From positions 62,001 to 126,000 of the IMG/VR virus record IMGVR_UViG_3300027985_001318: a DNA stretch of 64,000 nt. The stretch is one strand, 5' to 3'. The position numbers were made by a program, and so were the translations under genes. The stretch's first letter is position 1; each line of letters begins with the position of its first letter. Positions 13,994 through 56,712 of this stretch are shown piece after piece. This DNA is from a virus. The notes below the pieces were generated by a model. That model was not told the origin of the DNA, searched no databases, and was given only the letters and a program-made list of their open reading frames with translations.

Positions 13994-15967
13994 ATGGCAG
14001 TACATGACAACGGCCAAAGCAACCAAGGCCAGCCCCAGCAACCGACTGGCGGTCAGCCGCAACAGCAACAACAGACCCAACAACAAGGACCGGCTCAAAT
14101 GTCCCAACAGACTACCAACTTCAACTTCAATCCCGCGGCCGGTGCCGGCGACTTCAACCTGGACGACCTCATCGGTTCCGGTATCAGTCCCCTGGCCCCC
14201 ATCGCCGACAGCGCCAAGCTGACCGAACTGCAACAAGCCCTCCGTGAAGTGCTGTCCAAGGACGGCGGTAAGACTCTCCTGCCCGGTTTCGCTATCGACA
14301 TCGTCGATGCTGCCACTGCTCGCACCAAGGGTTCTGCGGTCCTGGTTTCTCACGCCACTCAAGTGGCCGGTGTTACCAACATCGCCGTGATGACCTGTAT
14401 CCTGGAAGCCTCTGTTGCCAACCAGTCCAAGGTGCAGTACGTTTTCAACCAACGTACCTATGAACTGGAGCCGACCGCCGGCACCAGCTGGACTTCCGCG
14501 TTCTGGAACCGTGTCGAGAACCGCATCCGCGATCAGTACGGCCGTGGCGATAACGTCAAGGTGTTCGACGTAGGTGTTATCTCTGTTCCGTTCGACTTCG
14601 ACGTCGAAGACAAGCAACATGTCCACAACCTGGCCCGGATCACTTCCAGCGCCTGCGCCATGTGCTCCGCTTCCCTGACCGGCCGTAGCGTTCGCCCCAT
14701 GAACCTGAGCGCCCAGATGCTGAAGCACAACCTCCAGCTGCAAAGCCGGGTTGACTTCACTACCAAGGATGCCAAGGATGCCGTAGGCCGTCCCGTTCGT
14801 GCCGATGTGGTTATCTCCACCTTCCTGGGCAACCAGCAACAGCAACAAGTGTACCAAGGTTACGTCGATCAAGGCCAGGACTCCGTTCCGCTGGTCAATC
14901 TGTCCGGTTATGTTGATGTCAACTACGTTGGGCCGACCCAGACCACCAACGGTGTGCAGACCCTGAACAGCACTCAGCACTACATGGCCGAGTTCGTCAT
15001 GACCGGTTTCGAAACCCGTCTGTACGACATGACCATGGAACGCCTGATGTTCATCACTGCTACCGCCTCCATGATGGATCGCGAGTTCACCTGGGCCCAC
15101 GCCATGCTGCCGAAGCCGCGGCCGGCTGATGCCAAGGGTAAGGATATCCGTGACATCGGTATCCTGGGTATCGAACAGGACTTCTTCGGCACCGGCGCCC
15201 CCAAGCGCATCGAATTCGGTGTCAACAAGGATAGCAACCAGAAGGTGGTGGAAATCTCCAACTTCCTGGCGACCCTGTTCTACAAGGAGCTGATCATCAG
15301 TATCGACTGCGATACCGTTGGCCCCAACTCCTACCTGACCAACGATCTGCTGCTGGCCGCCGGCAAGGGTGAGGCTTCCGTAGCCGCTCAATCCCGGATC
15401 CTGAACGCCTGTAACCAGCTCACCAACGGCGCTTTCGCTCCGCTGTGGGCACAGTCTGGTCTGCGTCCCGATCAGATCATCTACAACCGTAACCTGACCC
15501 TGCCGCGTAGCCAGTACGTCGACAACTCCGGTACCCTGCGTTCCGGCGCCGACCTGGACTACATCGCTCGACTGAACCTGCTGGAAAAGGATCTGCAATC
15601 CTACAACGAGTTCACTCGTACCATGGAAGATCCCAACCTGCCGAGCGAAGTCAAGCTGGCTACCCAAGAAGCTATGCTGAAGATGCTGTGGCCGACCGCC
15701 GTCGTCACTGGCGAACTGCATCGCCTGACCTGGGAACCCAAGATGTTGCAAGTCCTGGTCAAGGCCATGGAAAACGCCGGTGTGGCAATCCGTCCGGAAG
15801 GTCAACGCATCTCCGCGTGGGGCAATACCGCCATCCGTAGCAACCAAGCCCTGATGTCCTACGGTAACTTCGGGCTGTCCGCTGGCCTGTTCAACTACGG
15901 CAACAACGTAGGTGCCATGGCCGGTCCCGGTGGCTTCGGTGGTCGTATCTCCAGCTTCGGGATGTAA
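13994..15967 (+). CDS. chmA: chimallin, phage nucleus shell protein
   Basis: This protein self-assembles into the proteinaceous shell that encloses replicating phage DNA. I recognise it by segments shared with the 201phi2-1 shell protein: VGRPVRADVVIST (theirs VGNPIRADIVVTT), a WAHAMLP...KDIRDIGILG block (theirs WARPFLP...KDMKDIGALG), and the C-terminal YNEFTRTMEDPNLPSEVK helix region. It has a Gln-rich disordered N-terminus (about 1-40) and a Gly-rich C-terminal tail. The length is 657 aa, close to family size. Its codon use is strikingly biased (CTG, ATC, GGT, CGT) and the gene is GC-rich, fitting very high expression. There is a strong ribosome site and its own terminator. The long antisense frame over it is a composition artefact. 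Confidence 0.9.
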   Translation: MAVHDNGQSNQGQPQQPTGGQPQQQQQTQQQGPAQMSQQTTNFNFNPAAGAGDFNLDDLIGSGISPLAPIADSAKLTELQQALREVLSKDGGKTLLPGFAIDIVDAATARTKGSAVLVSHATQVAGVTNIAVMTCILEASVANQSKVQYVFNQRTYELEPTAGTSWTSAFWNRVENRIRDQYGRGDNVKVFDVGVISVPFDFDVEDKQHVHNLARITSSACAMCSASLTGRSVRPMNLSAQMLKHNLQLQSRVDFTTKDAKDAVGRPVRADVVISTFLGNQQQQQVYQGYVDQGQDSVPLVNLSGYVDVNYVGPTQTTNGVQTLNSTQHYMAEFVMTGFETRLYDMTMERLMFITATASMMDREFTWAHAMLPKPRPADAKGKDIRDIGILGIEQDFFGTGAPKRIEFGVNKDSNQKVVEISNFLATLFYKELIISIDCDTVGPNSYLTNDLLLAAGKGEASVAAQSRILNACNQLTNGAFAPLWAQSGLRPDQIIYNRNLTLPRSQYVDNSGTLRSGADLDYIARLNLLEKDLQSYNEFTRTMEDPNLPSEVKLATQEAMLKMLWPTAVVTGELHRLTWEPKMLQVLVKAMENAGVAIRPEGQRISAWGNTAIRSNQALMSYGNFGLSAGLFNYGNNVGAMAGPGGFGGRISSFGM

Positions 15968-16050: not shown

Positions 16051-18893
16051 ATGAGCGCATACGTTCCTTATATCTCCAAACACGATCAATTAGAGGAGGA
16101 ATATGTCAGCGGTTTACATCTTGATATCGTTGATTTCGATTTGATGGCTGCGATTAGTTCGCGCCCTCCAGTCTACGCCAACGATCTTGATGTTAACGAA
16201 ATCGAGTCAAGACGCAAACTTCAGGATGAGCTCTACACCCACTACGAGTCGGACACCATAGACAACATCCCCGTTTGTAGCTGCCAGAAATACAAAGGCG
16301 CTCGCTATTACGGGATAGTCTGTGATCGTTGCGGTTCAGAGGTAATGATTCCCTCGGAACGGCCAATAGAATCCGCTCTTTGGATCCGCGCCCCAGAAGG
16401 CGTTCCTGGTCTGATAAACCCATTAGTTTACAGTAACTTGGTAGCGACCTTCAAGAAAAACGGCGTAAGTATCATTGAGTGGTTGATCGACCCGTATTAC
16501 AAGCCCCCGAAAAATAACAGCGGCCAAGTAATTGCTCGACTGGAAGCTTTAGGGGTGCAGCGTGGCTTGAAGAACTTCATCTTCAACTTCGACCAAATCA
16601 TCACCATCCTCACAGCTAATACGTTGTTCAGCAACAAAAAGAAAGCGCCTCTGCAACGTTTCAAGGAATGGATCGACCGTAACAGAGATCGTCTGTTCCC
16701 CCAAGCTTTGCCGATACCATCCAAGCTTTCCTTCATTCTGGAAGACTTGGCGGTTGGTCGCTTCGCTGACCACAACATGGCTGATGCTCTGGATGCGGTA
16801 AGTACCATAGCGTCACTGAACTCTGGCATAACGGCACCTTCACAGCAACAACGTGAAAGTCGTGCAGTGAAAGCCTGTGCTCAACTGGCCTCTTTCTACG
16901 AAGGTCAATGTCGTAGTAGCCTTGGTGATAAACCTGGGCTGTTTAGACGCCACGTTTTTGGTACAAGACCAGCAATGAGTTTCCGGGCAGTAATCACCTC
17001 GCTGTCGGCTAACCACCGATATGATGAGATGCACTTGCCTTGGTCGCTCTCTGTGTCACTCTTCAGGGTCCATATCTACAACTACTTGTTGAAGATGGGA
17101 CTTTCTCCACTGGAATGTCGTAAACAAATCGCTGAAGCGATCATCAAATTTGATCCGGTAATTTACGATATCCTGAACAACCTTATTTCCACCCACAGCT
17201 CCGGTAAAGGTTGGCCTTCGTTCTTGCAACGAAACCCTTCACTGAAGCGTTTGTCTGCTCAACGTCTCTTCATTACCAAAATCAAAACAGATGTCGAAGA
17301 TTACACGATTTCGTTCTCTGTTCTTGTACTTAAGGGAATGAACGCTGACTTTGACGGTAGAGCATTGCCGTCAATAGTTTCTTGGTTTCTGTGGCTAAGA
17401 AACTTACTAAACTCATCTAACTGCTGGAAGTACGTAATATAGTAGCAACCAAAGCGGAACTGGAAACGGTAGACGTCATGGTATGAAAATGGTTACTATT
17501 AGCTCGTCGTGAGACGTCAAAATCGTTAATCAGCAACGAAGCACCTTAAACTACGAAAGTAATCCTACTCCTAGGAGTGTGTGTGTTCAGAGACTATCGA
17601 AACCACATCGATGCAATGTCGATGGAAGGGAGTAGAGTAGGGGAAACCCGAAACGGTGAGTATTGGCCACATTTGAGCCAGTAAAGATATAGCCCACAAT
17701 GTTCTGTTTCCTAGTTTCATCTTCCAGGAGGTGAAATGAAGAAAGAAATCCCAGGAACTGTAAATTATAGCGCTGATGACCGTGGAATTATTTACGGCCC
17801 AGATGGTAATGTGAGAAACACCTATCGGAATGGCGATGGTTATATCACTACACTAATCAAGACCGACAATGGTATTTTCCGAACTGTTGGTGTTCATCGA
17901 TTAGTGGCGCTAGCTTTTAAGGCCGAGGAACGTTCGCCAGAGAAATTCCAAATCAATCATCTTGATGGAAACATTGAAAACAATGTCCCAGACAACCTCG
18001 ATTGGGAAACTCCAGCAAACAATAACCTACACGCATCCTTAGTTTCAGAAGGGTACGAACGAAAGATCGTTACTGTAAATCAAAAAGGTTCAGTTAACTA
18101 CTTCAAGAATCTTCGCGAAGTGGCTGTTTTTGCCAATTCAAAAATAGGCGATGTCTGGAAAGCTTTCAGAGACAAAGAACAGATAGCTGGACTAAGTATT
18201 TACATTAATCTAAACCTCGGGCCAGAATTTCATCTAACCAAGATCAAAAACAGAGACCATTTAGGTAGACAGATAAAACGAAATCTTAAGATGCAAAACC
18301 TAGAAACAGGAGAAATTAAACTAGGCCATGCTTCTGAATTAGCTAGATTTTTCGGAGTCTCTACAGCGCACATTACTACCTCAGTAACAGAAGAAATTCT
18401 GCATTTATTCAACGAAAAATGGATAATTGTAGATGAATGCTCGGAGTTTCCAGAAATAGATAACGAAACCTGGCTATATCTGAAAGAACGTGGAAAATCA
18501 AAACCTGTCTTTGCAATCGATCCAAGCAATCGACAAGTTATTTTACGTTTTAAAAGTGCAGCCGAGTTCGTTAGAAATTCTGGTCTGAGTAAGAAAGCTG
18601 TTACTGTTAGGTTGAAAGCGAGTAAGTGCGGTAAACTAGATGGTTGGGCGTTTGGTTACCAAGATTGTTTAGATGAACAATCGTTAAAAGAAATGTAAAG
18701 AACTGGGAAACAGAACGGTTTTACGGACGCTCTCAACGGTCTCATTATTCTTGACGACCGGATGGGTAAAGCAGCAGAACGGCTGGCTACATACCACGGT
18801 ATGTTGGATTTGCAAAAGCCGTACAGGATTTCTGACGACATGGCTCTTCAAGGTCCTGTGATCAGTACGATCGATGAATGGCTACGTTCTTAG
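16051..18893 (+). CDS. nvRNAP beta' subunit N-terminal part (phiKZ gp55-like), interrupted by a group I intron
   Basis: Exons 16051-17358 and 18726-18893; 491 residues after splicing. It is the catalytic N-terminal half of the beta' subunit of the non-virion RNA polymerase that transcribes phage genes inside the cell. Seen: a zinc-binding pair set C76-x-C78 and C91-x2-C94, an RPAMSFRAVI segment (about 309-318), and the metal-binding motif NADFDGD at 431-437. The unspliced frame stops at 17442 and replaces the third catalytic Asp with Arg. Exon 2 restores GDALNGLIILDDR and ends DEWLRS. Joining the exons at a codon boundary gives a seamless beta' motif. The location straight after chimallin matches the gp54-gp55 order of phiKZ. 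Confidence 0.9.
17359..18725 (+). mobile_element. group I self-splicing intron in nvRNAP beta' gene
   Basis: 1367 bases. The 5' exon end TTGACGGT pairs perfectly with GCCGTCAA eight bases into the intron (P1, with the expected U.G at the splice site). The intron ends in G (18725), and AAAGATATAGCCC at 17684-17696 resembles the conserved group I P7 strand. AGAGC at the intron start can pair with GCTCT early in exon 2 (P10-like). It carries an HNH endonuclease ORF after the core. Insertion is exactly within the NADFDG|D motif. Confidence 0.85.
17736..18698 (+). CDS. intron-encoded HNH homing endonuclease
   Basis: 320 residues with an AGGAGGTG ribosome site. The HNH_3-type core is VHRLVALAF...INHLDGNIENNVPDNLDWET (about 49-90), containing the H...NHxxGxxxxN...NLxW residues. 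It is followed by NUMOD1-type helix-turn-helix repeats (ASELARFFGVSTAHI near 205; SAAEFVRNSGLSKKAV near 280) that bind the target DNA. It lies wholly inside the group I intron and should cleave the intronless nvRNAP allele so that the intron can move into it. AT-richer with less biased codons than the host gene, as expected of a mobile element. Confidence 0.9.
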   Translation: MKKEIPGTVNYSADDRGIIYGPDGNVRNTYRNGDGYITTLIKTDNGIFRTVGVHRLVALAFKAEERSPEKFQINHLDGNIENNVPDNLDWETPANNNLHASLVSEGYERKIVTVNQKGSVNYFKNLREVAVFANSKIGDVWKAFRDKEQIAGLSIYINLNLGPEFHLTKIKNRDHLGRQIKRNLKMQNLETGEIKLGHASELARFFGVSTAHITTSVTEEILHLFNEKWIIVDECSEFPEIDNETWLYLKERGKSKPVFAIDPSNRQVILRFKSAAEFVRNSGLSKKAVTVRLKASKCGKLDGWAFGYQDCLDEQSLKEM

Positions 18894-36855: not shown

Positions 36856-38399
36856 AAAAAAACTCCGGCCGGATCCAGAGCTATCAGGTGGTCAAAACGA
36901 CCGCCTATTACCGGTTGTTTACCGTCGTAACCAGCAGCTACGCAGGAAGGACAGACGAAGTTAGGTACAGCGACCACGCCAATCGTGCAGTCGGAGATAA
37001 AAGCCTCGACTTTATCGTAGAAGTCCTTGGCGATATTTTCATCGTTAGTGAAAACACCGAGCTGATTAGCCAGATCTTCCCGATCTTCGATGTAGCCATT
37101 TTCATCGCCGTTCTCGTCCAAGAAGACAATCCGCTCAATCCAGTGGGAGTACTGCCGCATTGCGGTAGCTTGTCCTTGACTGAGGATATACTCTTCCCGT
37201 TCTTCAGGAGACATTTTCTTTTGGAAAGCCATCTCGCAACGCTGACGAATTTCCTCGACCCAAGCAATCCCTTCATTTTCGTATTGGGCGAAACTGGGGA
37301 TACGGAGATCGAAACGAATGCCGTTAGAAACGAAAGAACGGTTACCTTTCAAAGCAAATGCTTCGTGATACTCCTTGTAGATCTCAGGAGTTACCGGCGT
37401 GCCGGGGCGAGAAATGATCGAACGTTGCTTGCTGGTAAGATAACTCTTATCCATCCAAAGCATTTCGTTGATGTTAACCAACCCTTCAAAGGTAGCCATA
37501 CAGTTACCCGGCCGAGACAGGCAGGGTTGAGTGTAGAGGAAACCCTTGGGGTAGATAGCGGCAGCTACTTCAGTGAGAATCAAGTTTACATCAGGTAGCT
37601 TGATGTATTCCTTCAACAAGGCCTTGTCGGTGTAGTCGGCAACCAAATTACTACCGATAACAAAGTCCAAAATGAAGTTCATCGCTGCTGATTTGATGAA
37701 AACATCGGTAGAGGAAAACACTCGACCGGCGGTAGCGCGACCCAAGACAGACTTCATCAGAGCCATTGAAGCTTCCAGATTAATCAGATCTGCATTCAAC
37801 GGCTGTTTGATAGTCAGAGAGAAACCACTATGAATACCAGTGGCAGTAACTGGGGAACCGATGCCTAGAACGGCGGATGCCTTGGCCATGGCCTTAACAC
37901 CAGTCAAAGGCATGTTACCGGAACTACCCTCGATACGAGGTCTGGTCAGACCGATGCGACGACCTTCGTCAGAGAAGTTATTAGTCCATTCGGAACCTTC
38001 TCGGTTGAAAGGAAGGTCCGCACCTTTCTGACCAAACAGATCAGCACCCATTTCCAGAATTTCCGGCCATTTAGTTTTAAGCAGCGCAGCCAGCTCTTCC
38101 TTAGAAGATTTCTCGAGGATCTCACGGAACGGACCATTGATGGTTTCTTGATTGCCGCCAGGTACGATCAAGTGCTCCGCATCGCCGATGGGTTGTTCTT
38201 TAGGGATCTTGCAGTCCTCAGCTATTTTACCAGCCGGCAAAATAGACAGAGAAAATCCAGGATCGTCTTCTTCCCCAGATTCGGCATTGCTGTCCTGGTC
38301 CGGTTGTTCTTCGGTAGCCAGCCCCTGACTATCTACCACCGGTTCTTGATGTTCGATCTCGGCACCTTCTGGTTCTTGCTTGTCGGTTTCGTTAGACAT
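36804..38399 (-). CDS. virion-type protein, frame 0 product (531 aa)
   Basis: ATG with an AAGGAT ribosome site. The N-terminal ~50 residues are acidic and disordered. The body contains RPGNCMATFEGL (about 286-297), a helical region rich in charged residues, and a VPNFVCPSCVAAGYDGKQ segment near 480-497 with a CxxC pair. I do not recognise the family. The acidic, likely removable N-terminus and the surroundings fit a structural or assembly protein of the phiKZ group. It is translated after the 140-residue gene with an eight-base overlap. The last 16 residues follow the T8 run and differ from the -1 frame. Confidence 0.7.
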   Translation of the reverse strand: MSNETDKQEPEGAEIEHQEPVVDSQGLATEEQPDQDSNAESGEEDDPGFSLSILPAGKIAEDCKIPKEQPIGDAEHLIVPGGNQETINGPFREILEKSSKEELAALLKTKWPEILEMGADLFGQKGADLPFNREGSEWTNNFSDEGRRIGLTRPRIEGSSGNMPLTGVKAMAKASAVLGIGSPVTATGIHSGFSLTIKQPLNADLINLEASMALMKSVLGRATAGRVFSSTDVFIKSAAMNFILDFVIGSNLVADYTDKALLKEYIKLPDVNLILTEVAAAIYPKGFLYTQPCLSRPGNCMATFEGLVNINEMLWMDKSYLTSKQRSIISRPGTPVTPEIYKEYHEAFALKGNRSFVSNGIRFDLRIPSFAQYENEGIAWVEEIRQRCEMAFQKKMSPEEREEYILSQGQATAMRQYSHWIERIVFLDENGDENGYIEDREDLANQLGVFTNDENIAKDFYDKVEAFISDCTIGVVAVPNFVCPSCVAAGYDGKQPVIGGRFDHLIALDPAGVFFTLTSLRLTKMREGAGI

Positions 38400-53374: not shown

Positions 53375-54517
53375 TTACACTACGATAGTGCTGCCGTTAT
53401 AGCCGGCCATGTAATTGCTGGATAGCGTCTGACCAACAGAACCGCCGTTGCGACTATTGGTAAACTGACTATAAAGATCTTTCGGTACCCACCACTCCAG
53501 AGCATGTCCAGGCGTTTCCCCGTCGCTCGGGTTTACGTTGATCCACGGAAAAGCCAGGAAATTAAAGTACATCAGTTCATCTTTAGACAACTTAGTAAAA
53601 TAACGTTCCCGAGTGGAATCACCAAGTTCCGGGTTAAAGTACATTTCCTGACACCAGTTAAATTCATGTAGTAGTATCGGATCCATATACTCGCAGCCGT
53701 GGCAACGGAATGTTACAGTGATCTGATCGTTTTCGCTAGCACGAATGGTATTGACATCATAGTTGAACGCAGATCCGATATTTATACTGATCGGATAAGC
53801 TATGGTTCTAGCAATCTTCTGGACATGGGTCATATCCCGGTTAGTAACCAACCGATAGATAGCTGTTGCGAAATCCATCTCGTCTTCAATGATGGCATCT
53901 GGATGGGGAAAAATAGCTCCCTCGTAATTAAGCCCATAGTACTCCCGCCAAGCTAGTATCAGACCAGTAAGCGGATCACCGTCTATGTTGCGGAAGTTAC
54001 AGGTGATGTCAAAGGTATTGTAAAGCTTTACTGGACCATCCGGCAGGCTGTATTCTTCCTGATATAAACCAGGGTTAGAAGTCCAGCAAGAACTGACGAT
54101 ATCCGGGAACCCAGATACGTTGAGCAGCAAGTTGCTCAGTAGCGGCATAAAGGCCTGACGCGGGTCAATTAGAGGACAATTACGTCTTCCTGGCTTCTTT
54201 GCACTTACCGGATCAAGCAAATCTCTGATATAAGCCTGATAGCTTAACCGCTTATCGGTCATCAACGGAGTAAGTACCCGTGACGCTGCCAGGTTATCGT
54301 ATGACAAATTACATCTTGGTCTGGTGAACAAAGTTATCCCACCGTGATCATTATTGTGGGGCAACATAGTGCCGAAACCACGGGCGTTGATGCCAGCCAG
54401 GATATCTGCGTGAACACCCCTGGCGGTGCCAAGTCCTGATTCGCGAGACAGAATATCGAGCCATTTGGCTACGACAGCATCTGTGTACGAATTGGCATAA
54501 GTTACATCATTTGGCAT
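53375..54517 (-). CDS. virion-type protein, probably baseplate or tail (380 aa)
   Basis: ATG with TTAGGAGAGAT upstream. It lies 15 bases upstream of the baseplate wedge gene, so the two form a reverse operon. Many Tyr, Pro and Asn and beta-rich sequence (LYNTFDITCNFRNIDGDPLTGLI) suggest a structural fold. FRCHGCEYMDP (about 276-286) has a CxxC pair. No family name can be given. Tail or baseplate role inferred from the neighbour. Confidence 0.6.
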   Translation of the reverse strand: MPNDVTYANSYTDAVVAKWLDILSRESGLGTARGVHADILAGINARGFGTMLPHNNDHGGITLFTRPRCNLSYDNLAASRVLTPLMTDKRLSYQAYIRDLLDPVSAKKPGRRNCPLIDPRQAFMPLLSNLLLNVSGFPDIVSSCWTSNPGLYQEEYSLPDGPVKLYNTFDITCNFRNIDGDPLTGLILAWREYYGLNYEGAIFPHPDAIIEDEMDFATAIYRLVTNRDMTHVQKIARTIAYPISINIGSAFNYDVNTIRASENDQITVTFRCHGCEYMDPILLHEFNWCQEMYFNPELGDSTRERYFTKLSKDELMYFNFLAFPWINVNPSDGETPGHALEWWVPKDLYSQFTNSRNGGSVGQTLSSNYMAGYNGSTIVV

Positions 54518-54547
54518 GATATCTCTCCTAAATAAGGAAGGAAAAAG

Positions 54548-55798
54548 ATGGGCGCAATTAAAGACACCTTCGAAGTCGGAGGTACGTTGATGGAAGAGGT
54601 ATACAATCGCGGTAAAGCGGTTGCTGGACCTACTTCTCTTTCTGAATACACGCGGATGGCGCGGGTTTGTCCTCGAGTCCTGGTTGAAGACGGACTTCGC
54701 GGTTTGCCTTATATCAGCGAACTTCTACATACCAGTTGCAATATCTTTGCTGGCTATTACCTGACAGCCGTCAGTATGATGGCTGACATCAATGGCGTTA
54801 GCGTACTGGAGCGTCTGGAACGACTGAATCCGGATCGCGACCCGGTTCGTTACGTTAAAGCTAAATTTGGTAAAACCAGCTTTGGGGTAGAAGACTACGG
54901 TGACGGTTCCCTTAACCTGGAGTCATTTGCCACCGGTCTCCCGACAGCTGCCAAAATCAAACGGCAGATCAATCTCGAACCTATGACCTGGGACCCGACT
55001 CGTCAACGTTACGTTAAAGCTTCTTCCATTAATACTCTTTCTACTGAAGCTAATGACGACAAAACCGCTCAAATTGGCGGCAAGGGCGACGATAAGAAAG
55101 AAGGCCGTACTATCGAGGTCGGTAACCGCGCTCGTGACGCTATTGTTAGCGTTAGCGAAACCAACAACATGGGCGTAGGTAAAATCCTGGAAGTATCTCT
55201 CACCAATCGTGGTGAGACCATCTCCATCCCAGTAACTATCACTTTGGCGGTTAGTACCACCGACAGTGAAAGTATGTCTCATATTTTAGGCTTGTGGAAT
55301 CGCAACTATAAGCTGAAAGAGCGTTGGCATGGCATGCGCTCTGGTGAACTCAAGTTCTGGAGCGAATTCGTTTTCATGCAAGACATCATCGCTAACCAGA
55401 GACGTTCTGTCATGCGCGACAAGTCCGGCTATCTGGCTACCATGATGGCTCAGTCTACCAAGAATGCTGCCGCTGCTGCCATCTCTGGTACGGCTTCTGT
55501 TGCCACGGCCTCCAGTACGATCATGGTGTCGCAAGAAACAGCCCAGCAGATTCAACTGGCCGGTGCGTTCAGTTTCGACGATTACCGCGCTCGTCAACGA
55601 GTGTTCGAAACCACGTTCTCCATGCTCCTGTTCATCGTCGACAGCGAGTGGGAAATGGTTAAGATCTACCACCGCGGTATCGAACAACCGACCAGATTGA
55701 CCATCAAGGAACTGAAGTCCTCCAGTAAGGGCAACGGTCCGGATATCGCTGAAATCCTCAAAGCCTATCAGCTCGGTCGCGCGCCTGGCGTAGTGTAA
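54548..55798 (+). CDS. virion-cluster protein (416 aa)
   Basis: Starts a forward operon running to 58428. The N-terminal part has MADINGVSVLERLERLNPDR (about 77-96). An acidic/Lys-rich linker is at 170-195 (KGDDKKEGRTIEVG), and the middle is beta-rich (ETISIPVTITLAVSTTDSE), followed by Ala-rich helices. It resembles phiKZ-type head or tail proteins, but I cannot name one. The divergent start sits 30 bases from the 53375-54517 gene's start. Confidence 0.62.
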   Translation: MGAIKDTFEVGGTLMEEVYNRGKAVAGPTSLSEYTRMARVCPRVLVEDGLRGLPYISELLHTSCNIFAGYYLTAVSMMADINGVSVLERLERLNPDRDPVRYVKAKFGKTSFGVEDYGDGSLNLESFATGLPTAAKIKRQINLEPMTWDPTRQRYVKASSINTLSTEANDDKTAQIGGKGDDKKEGRTIEVGNRARDAIVSVSETNNMGVGKILEVSLTNRGETISIPVTITLAVSTTDSESMSHILGLWNRNYKLKERWHGMRSGELKFWSEFVFMQDIIANQRRSVMRDKSGYLATMMAQSTKNAAAAAISGTASVATASSTIMVSQETAQQIQLAGAFSFDDYRARQRVFETTFSMLLFIVDSEWEMVKIYHRGIEQPTRLTIKELKSSSKGNGPDIAEILKAYQLGRAPGVV

Positions 55799-55809
55799 GG
55801 GAGAGTTAA

Positions 55810-56712
55810 ATGAACATTTTTGATTTTGCGCGTTCCCTTCTGCCCAATCTGGAGCGCAACCGTGTAGCTGACGAGATCGCCACCCTGATCAAGATCGAGG
55901 AAAACTCGCTGATCGGTGCCTGGGAACTCGTCGGTAAAGAACTGAAGGGCAAGTTCCAGGCAGAAGAGATCTCCGGTATCGAGAAACTGTTGCAGGCGGC
56001 ACTTAAGGGCGTCCAGCGCGGCAGTCTCACCGAGATCCTGGAAAAGGCCAACGTCAACGCTGTTGAAGTTCTGAAGTTCCTGGAGGGTGCAGTAAATGAT
56101 TCTTTCGGTGATACTATTTCTCGTGAAGGTATCGACTACCGCAAGGCCACTGTACTGCAATATATCGAGGTAATGCGGCAGTTTATCGTTTTCCAACGCG
56201 GTTTCGTTCGTTTCGTAACCGTCTCTGAAACGAAAGCCCGTTTCCCCTCTACCGAATCCTTGGAAGAAGTCTTCTCTCCTGGCGAGTTGCGGGAAATGCG
56301 TTCCGGGGTTCAGGGTTTCATTGAACTCACAGTCCTGGCTCTCAAAAAGACCGCTGACATCGAAGCGGCTATTGCCGAGATCCCGGAAGTGGTTGTTGAC
56401 ACCAACGCTAGCGATAACCGTGCAGTGTCTCGCGTGATGGGTGCTGATCGGATCGATCCGTTCAACATGCGCGGTTTCTTCCAGAAATGGAACCCGATCT
56501 TCTGGATCCAGATGCGCTGGGCCGCACACCAAGTCGACATGTATAACGCCGCCCTGGAAGACCGCAAGGCTCTGGAGCAACGCCTGTTGAGCCTTCGGGA
56601 AATCCAGCGCAACGATCCCAATCCCCAACGCCAGAAAGTTATCGAGTATCATGAACAACGCCTGGCTCGCTTGGTAAGCAAGATCAAGGAAACGGAGCAA
56701 AAGTATGGCTAA
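55810..56712 (+). CDS. virion-cluster helical protein (300 aa)
   Basis: ATG with a GGGAGAGTTAA ribosome site, 11 bases after the previous stop. Almost entirely helical, with a charged coiled-coil C-terminus (KVIEYHEQRLARLVSKIKETEQ). It overlaps the next gene by eight bases. Scaffold-like or inner-head in character, but with no identified family. Confidence 0.65.
   Translation: MNIFDFARSLLPNLERNRVADEIATLIKIEENSLIGAWELVGKELKGKFQAEEISGIEKLLQAALKGVQRGSLTEILEKANVNAVEVLKFLEGAVNDSFGDTISREGIDYRKATVLQYIEVMRQFIVFQRGFVRFVTVSETKARFPSTESLEEVFSPGELREMRSGVQGFIELTVLALKKTADIEAAIAEIPEVVVDTNASDNRAVSRVMGADRIDPFNMRGFFQKWNPIFWIQMRWAAHQVDMYNAALEDRKALEQRLLSLREIQRNDPNPQRQKVIEYHEQRLARLVSKIKETEQKYG

Follow-up and report, generated by a model that had tools for sequence, protein, structure and literature searches.

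Within the window, a stretch of 64,000 nucleotides from a 223,650-bp viral record, the gene for the nuclear shell protein (chimallin) is followed directly by the gene for the N-terminal beta' subunit of nvRNAP, the homolog of phiKZ gp55, whose reading frame is broken inside the catalytic NADFDGD motif (Table 1). The part ahead of the break, designated exon 1, is matched by 297 phage records and by phrog_2987, RNA polymerase beta subunit (E 1.1e-135). Read without splicing, the frame from 16051 continues for 27 codons past 17358 and then stops, yielding a product of 463 aa; the third catalytic aspartate of the motif stands at the head of a short exon 2, and an intact ORF for a homing endonuclease lies between the two exons. 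Judged by its chimallin gene, the window phage is a nucleus-forming one (Chimalliviridae).

Table 1. Features of the interrupted nvRNAP gene and its surroundings (window coordinates unless stated otherwise).
Feature	Position	Strand	Basis or remark
Nuclear shell protein (chimallin) gene	13994..15967	+	phrog_4795, E=6.2e-76; directly upstream of exon 1
Exon 1, nvRNAP N-terminal beta' gene (phiKZ gp55 homolog)	16051..17358	+	ends ...K-G-M-N-A-D-F-D-G
P1 exon strand UUGACGGU	17351..17358	+	U.G at splice site
Group I intron, 1367 nt	17359..18725	+	Rfam and joined frame
P10 strand AGAGCAUU	17359..17366	+	7/8 pairs with exon 2, 18726-18733
Ribozyme core, Rfam Intron_gpI, model 1-253/253	17362..17701	+	RF00028
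Internal guide sequence GCCGUCAA, P1 intron strand	17367..17374	+	pairs with UUGACGGU
In-frame stop closing the unspliced 463-aa frame	17440..17442	+	about 82 nt into the intron
J8/7 and P7 3' strand AAAGAUAUAGCCC	17683..17695	+	Rfam alignment and family alignment
P9 5' strand GUUCUGUUUCC	17701..17711	+	11 perfect pairs with 18706-18716
9-bp hairpin over endonuclease Shine-Dalgarno AGGAGGUG	17715..17736	+	-7.3 kcal/mol for 17715-17745
HNH_3 homing endonuclease ORF, intact, 320 aa	17736..18698	+	looped out of P9; frame differs from exon 1
P9 3' strand GGAAACAGAAC	18706..18716	+	pairs with 17701-17711
Exon 2, 55 codons and stop	18726..18893	+	starts with third catalytic Asp (DALNGLIILDD...)
Second group I intron, 396 nt, without nuclease gene	record 37321-37716 (L065:1511-1906)		outside the window

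The 5' splice site is placed directly after T17358, and the intron, which starts with AGAGCATT and ends with TTTTACG, has G as its last base; exon 2 opens at 18726 with GACGCTCTC. When 17358 is joined to 18726, the frame encodes a 491-aa protein with the C-terminal end ...NADFDGDALNGLIILDDRMGKAAERLATYHGMLDLQKPYRISDDMALQGPVISTIDEWLRS, residues 21-489 of which align with residues 22-493 of a phiKZ nvRNAP chain (PDB 7ogp_A) at 316.9 bits (E=1.8e-93). This alignment runs end to end and crosses the junction, and the DFDGD motif is present once the exons are joined. Likewise, the joined frame is continuous in all five intronless controls, each of which has an uninterrupted NADFDGD or NGDFDGD: 201phi2-1, PhiPA3 gp054, Eowyn, SPLA1a and pEa_SNUABM_4. 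An earlier note on this DNA had proposed an intron at 17359-18725 that splits the motif as NADFDG/D (the slash marks the junction), ends in G and leaves the third catalytic aspartate to exon 2, and it had called for a comparison with intronless homologs. Its boundaries prove right to the base, and the restored aspartate agrees with both 7ogp_A and the homologs. Splicing at 17358/18726, as at all other junctions compared below, is what we infer from such joined frames, and the loss of the aspartate from the unspliced frame makes it a sound expectation that transcription by nvRNAP would depend on splicing.

The covariance-model search that the note had likewise suggested finds a group I core: RF00028 matches 17362-17701 with 44 bits (E=1.5e-9 in the window, E=4.9e-11 in a search of the whole record). 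Since this score falls short of the curated gathering score of 50 bits, a default Rfam scan misses the intron, which was found only at the E-value threshold; at the gathering threshold there was no match anywhere in the window. Many of the relatives at the same site score above this cut-off. P1 consists of eight pairs between UUGACGGU and GCCGUCAA, one of them the U.G at the splice site, as had been noted, and the stretch taken to be P7-like, AAAGATATAGCCC (17683-17695), coincides with J8/7 and the 3' strand of P7 in the Rfam alignment. For P10, the eight intron bases ahead of the guide, AGAGCAUU, face GACGCUCU of exon 2 with one mismatch. The perfect 11-bp stem of P9 was equalled in one of 2000 shuffles, and the core remains uninterrupted because the P9 loop holds the entire endonuclease gene. 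Two oddities of the core are an extra stem in P2, which is unusual, and the P7 variant GCC for GTC; single-sequence MFE folding (z=-2.94) did not recover the group I core.

The endonuclease carries an HNH_3 domain at residues 52-97 (30.1 bits, E=3.9e-7, against a Pfam cut-off of 24.8), and its only significant relative in the PDB is I-HmuI (1u3e, E=1.6e-4); a search of IMG/VR with the endonuclease found no relative. The note's identification of the insertion in the nvRNAP N-beta' gene as a group I intron that carries an HNH endonuclease thus stands on the Rfam core, on P1, P10 and P9, on the HNH_3 domain, on the intronless homologs and on the alignment to 7ogp_A. The hairpin over the Shine-Dalgarno sequence, which recalls the occluded intron ORFs of T4, may restrain translation of the endonuclease.

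The intron has a family at the same site. Named phages with an intron at NADFDG/D are pEa_SNUABM_54 (Erwinia), HHBS47_1 (Pseudomonas), Miami (Klebsiella), the Vibrio phages 5 and VP4B, and Totoro and Kodama (both Serratia), to which the second intron of Aeromonas phage PS1 is to be added. IMG/VR was sampled with a DNA pattern based on P1, which returned 31 loci; nine of these have the polymerase motif (L039, L041, L048, L049, L051, L052, L055, L060 and L064), and the remaining ones, in which the motif is absent, were set aside as chance matches. An intron at NADFDG/D is present in L039, L048/L064, L049 and L055, and L052 and L060 reach the edge of the locus inside it. Apart from PS1, the named phages and the loci L039, L048, L049 and L055 all have a terminal G, U at -1 and the guide TTGC[C/T]GTC, and the 5' halves of the family's introns share the invariant blocks TTGC.GTC (the guide), TAA.TGC.GG.A, AATC.GC, TCA..G.C.A and AAGATAT.G.C. 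Introns with a nuclease gene measure 1347-1425 nt and those without it 296 (Kodama), 322 (L039), 345 (L048) and 386 nt (VP4B); the cores of Totoro and Kodama are 93 percent identical, the former with and the latter without a nuclease. The nucleases at NADFDG/D find their best matches in one another, and those of other junctions are more distant in a tree that is partly resolved.

Changes in the exon 2 codons are matched within the intron: GATGCTCT occurs with AGAGTATT, GACGCTCT with AGAGCGTT and GATATGTT with AGTATATT. Across 12 introns at NADFDG/D, P10 with the intron's own exon 2 forms 80 of 96 pairs against a mean of 66.5 with the exons shuffled, at p=1e-5, a value that is optimistic because related introns are not independent and shared ancestry remains, and that refers to covariation in P10 rather than in the whole core. 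Because the intronless homologs carry the joined frame and both P9 and P10 surpass their shuffled counterparts, the intron at NADFDG/D is no product of chance. In nucleotide BLAST, the whole locus matches only pEa_SNUABM_54 and, over a short shared stretch, the Vibrio phages JSF10 and JSF12. The match in JSF10 (L003:4001-4068) covers 68 nt of the window intron and lies between two pieces that are annotated as DNA polymerase I and that enclose an ORF; it probably belongs to another group I intron, in the DNA polymerase I gene of a member of the Demerecviridae.

Our main reading, to which we assign a probability of roughly 95 percent, is that the G and D codons of NADFDGD in the nvRNAP N-beta' gene of a chimallin-encoding jumbo phage are separated by a mobile group I intron and that splicing would restore the 491-aa subunit. 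For this reading the sequence supplies the boundaries, the core, the pairings, the intact HNH domain, the uninterrupted homologs and the related introns at the same site. The precursor RNA would fold into the group I core, with the 5' site set by P1, that is by the exon strand UUGACGGU and the guide GCCGUCAA, and the 3' site set by P10. Splicing initiated by guanosine would then join GGU to GAC, thereby producing the subunit with all three catalytic aspartates, in which a peptide across the junction would span FDGDALNGLIILDD. The HNH gene would be carried along in the P9 loop, outside the core, and its product probably nicks or cuts the intronless site in co-infecting relatives, upon which repair would copy the intron in.

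It might be held against this mechanism that the ribozyme is degenerate and splices poorly, the subunit being made as two separately translated polypeptides, a 463-aa N-terminal part and a short C-terminal part. RNAP subunits of jumbo phages are indeed often split (PMC7598289), the window core stays under the Rfam cut-off, and GenBank lists the parts as separate genes in relatives. However, the break would then fall between the catalytic Gly and Asp, exon 2 begins with GAC and lacks, at the junction, a start codon provided with a ribosome site, and P1, P9 and P10 have all been kept. Moreover, the phiKZ counterpart was solved as one chain, and the 56 kDa of the protein from infected cells exceed what the annotated ORF of 420 aa would give, which makes two polypeptides very improbable. 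The chance of an intein or another in-frame protein insertion is smaller still, to the point of being negligible: Although inteins, as a matter of general knowledge, also prefer the catalytic motifs of polymerases, the frame of exon 1 stops at 17442 and the HNH ORF has a start and a ribosome site of its own and is read in a different frame, Pfam shows no intein domain and a group I core is present, so that this explanation is ruled out by the frame. A group II intron was also considered and rejected.

A different question is what the endonuclease does. It could mainly be a weapon against co-infecting relatives, a role demonstrated for PhiPA3 gp210, and no longer move the intron. The setting is the same as that described for PhiPA3, namely a nucleus-forming phage, an RNAP gene and an HNH nuclease (PMC11620839), and the endonuclease of the window intron is distantly homologous to PhiPA3 gp210 (24 percent, E=3e-7). 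Yet the patchy occurrence of introns at a single junction in phages that infect many different hosts resembles continuing mobility, and the roles of weapon and homing enzyme are not exclusive; we regard loss of homing as unlikely, albeit far from negligible, and keep to a mobile intron with a putatively active homing nuclease.

The record contains a second match to RF00028 (37311-37651, 56.4 bits). The corresponding intron is inserted after the two aspartates (DD) of the virion-polymerase beta gene, which is the position of the PhiPA3 intron. Each polymerase of the window phage would thus appear to have one core subunit whose gene depends on splicing.

The NADFDG/D site is one of several. Junctions were placed so that a U stands at -1, the intron ends in G and the conserved protein is restored; in jumbo phages this yields nine distinct junctions within about 10 codons around NADFDGD: A/P (LucasX, L048/L064), N/A (phiKZ, KTN4, phi9_PA9, KpGz_1, L052), A/D (SPLA3, phiRU), D/F (PS1, ZPAH34), inside the F codon (Goslar), D/G (Yong MS31), G/D (the window phage and its same-site family), D/Q (PA7) and after DGDA (the second intron of Goslar). 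A further junction, RN/P, was located about 38 codons upstream in KTN4 and L049 and, through an alignment, in AttikonH10. Every interrupted locus has at least one match to RF00028, and a search of the intronless controls 201phi2-1, Eowyn and pEa_SNUABM_4 gave none; the second core of Goslar is weak in Rfam (16.7 bits, E=0.065). In Salmonella phages SPLA3 (L022), which has the A/D intron, and SPLA1a (L032), which has an empty site, the surroundings are 98 percent identical, and three differences fall within the last nine exon bases ahead of the insertion, a pattern expected of co-conversion. KpGz_1 and Eowyn form another pair of occupied and empty sites, at 88 percent identity. The tblastn coverage criterion over-counts splits, as pEa_SNUABM_43 seemed interrupted and is in fact continuous, and the prevalence of roughly one-third that it suggests is no measurement. 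The GenBank entries of PA7 (L004), Miami (L006), Vibrio phage 5 (L007), HHBS47_1 (L005) and ZPAH34 (L026) list a truncated subunit and a separate protein of about 60 aa, the spliced form being unannotated.

Several of these genes appear to contain two introns with a very small exon between them. PS1 (Aeromonas; L009:2187-3821) has a putative 9-nt micro-exon, TTCGACGGT, with the codons F-D-G, so that the three catalytic aspartates would sit on three different exons. Corresponding candidates comprise 13 nt in Goslar, a phage of E. coli (CGACGGTGACGCT, L012:4763-6570), 15 nt in L052 (GCCGATTTCGACGGT, 668-1069) and 21 nt in L048/L064 (CCAAATGCTGATTTTGACGGT, minus strand). In KTN4 (L011:4147-6870) and AttikonH10 (L028), which are phiKZ-type, gene 55 has two introns at RN/P and N/A, and KTN4 has two different HNH genes. 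A small exon between phage group I introns is known from the ribonucleotide reductase gene of phiNIT1 (PMC11878797). Our literature search, with subscription papers mostly outside it, returned no account of NADFDG/D introns, of multiple junctions or of micro-exons in this motif; Orekhova et al. 2019 may cover the phiKZ splice.

We think it probable that group I introns have a multi-site hotspot in the NADFDGD stretch of the jumbo-phage nvRNAP beta' subunit, with nine junctions, endonuclease lineages that differ from junction to junction and double-intron genes with micro-exons, and this wider pattern matters more than the window intron. Provided that the junctions are correct, nearly every codon boundary of one active-site motif has been occupied separately by different introns, and nature here offers a clean test of whether homing elements seek immutable DNA. 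Introns in this motif would also be the reason why many phages of the collections compared have truncated polymerase subunits in their annotation. Furthermore, a 9-nt exon flanked on both sides by self-splicing introns would put the order and accuracy of splicing to a hard test, in phages that keep transcription apart from translation.

Among known systems, the polymerase introns of Bacillus phages that encode HNH nicking endonucleases of the I-HmuI type share with the window intron an HNH_3-type nuclease inside a group I intron, but their target gene is another one and their nucleases are remote in sequence from the putative nuclease of the window. Goslar (NC_048170) has the same gene and motif, and a RefSeq ncRNA feature, Intron_gpI, adjoins its N-beta' gene; unlike the window phage, it appears to have introns at two other junctions, of which the record annotates one next to a truncated polymerase gene. 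The PhiPA3 intron with gp210, which interrupts the virion RNAP beta gene, has been studied experimentally, and its nuclease nicks the intronless site (Birkholz et al. 2024, PMC11620839). Like the window intron, it belongs to group I, encodes an HNH nuclease and splits an RNAP gene next to conserved aspartates in a phage that forms a nucleus, but it lies in vRNAP beta after DD, where the intron of the window phage has no nuclease gene. PhiPA3 also has an intron in nvRNAP beta (ORF 53811-56444, PMC10449902), and such introns resemble that of the window in that they interrupt a gene for an nvRNAP subunit in a jumbo phage and differ in subunit and site. The closest counterpart is that of phiKZ, in which annotated gene 55 ends at 420 aa and is followed by the HNH gene 56 and the 61-aa ORF 56.1. 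For phiKZ gp71-73 we presume a further intron, in nvRNAP beta. Between PHIKZ055 and PHIKZ056.1, RF00028 scores 75.6 bits, the splice sites rebuild NADFDGD at N/A, and the chain in 7ogp_A is PHIKZ055 joined to PHIKZ056.1. For native phiKZ gp55 a size of 56 kDa has been reported (PMC4666361), and in the structure the motif bears the numbers 417-DFDGD-421 and further residues come after it (PMC8287921); an intron within the NADFDGD of phiKZ gene 55 is hence already implicit in published work. This intron, of 1372 nt, shares with that of the window the gene, the motif, the group I core and an HNH nuclease, whereas its junction, N/ADFDGD, lies 15 nt upstream of NADFDG/D and its endonuclease belongs to another lineage. 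The window intron is an added case of a known class, and the phiKZ precedent makes it less surprising than the earlier note held.
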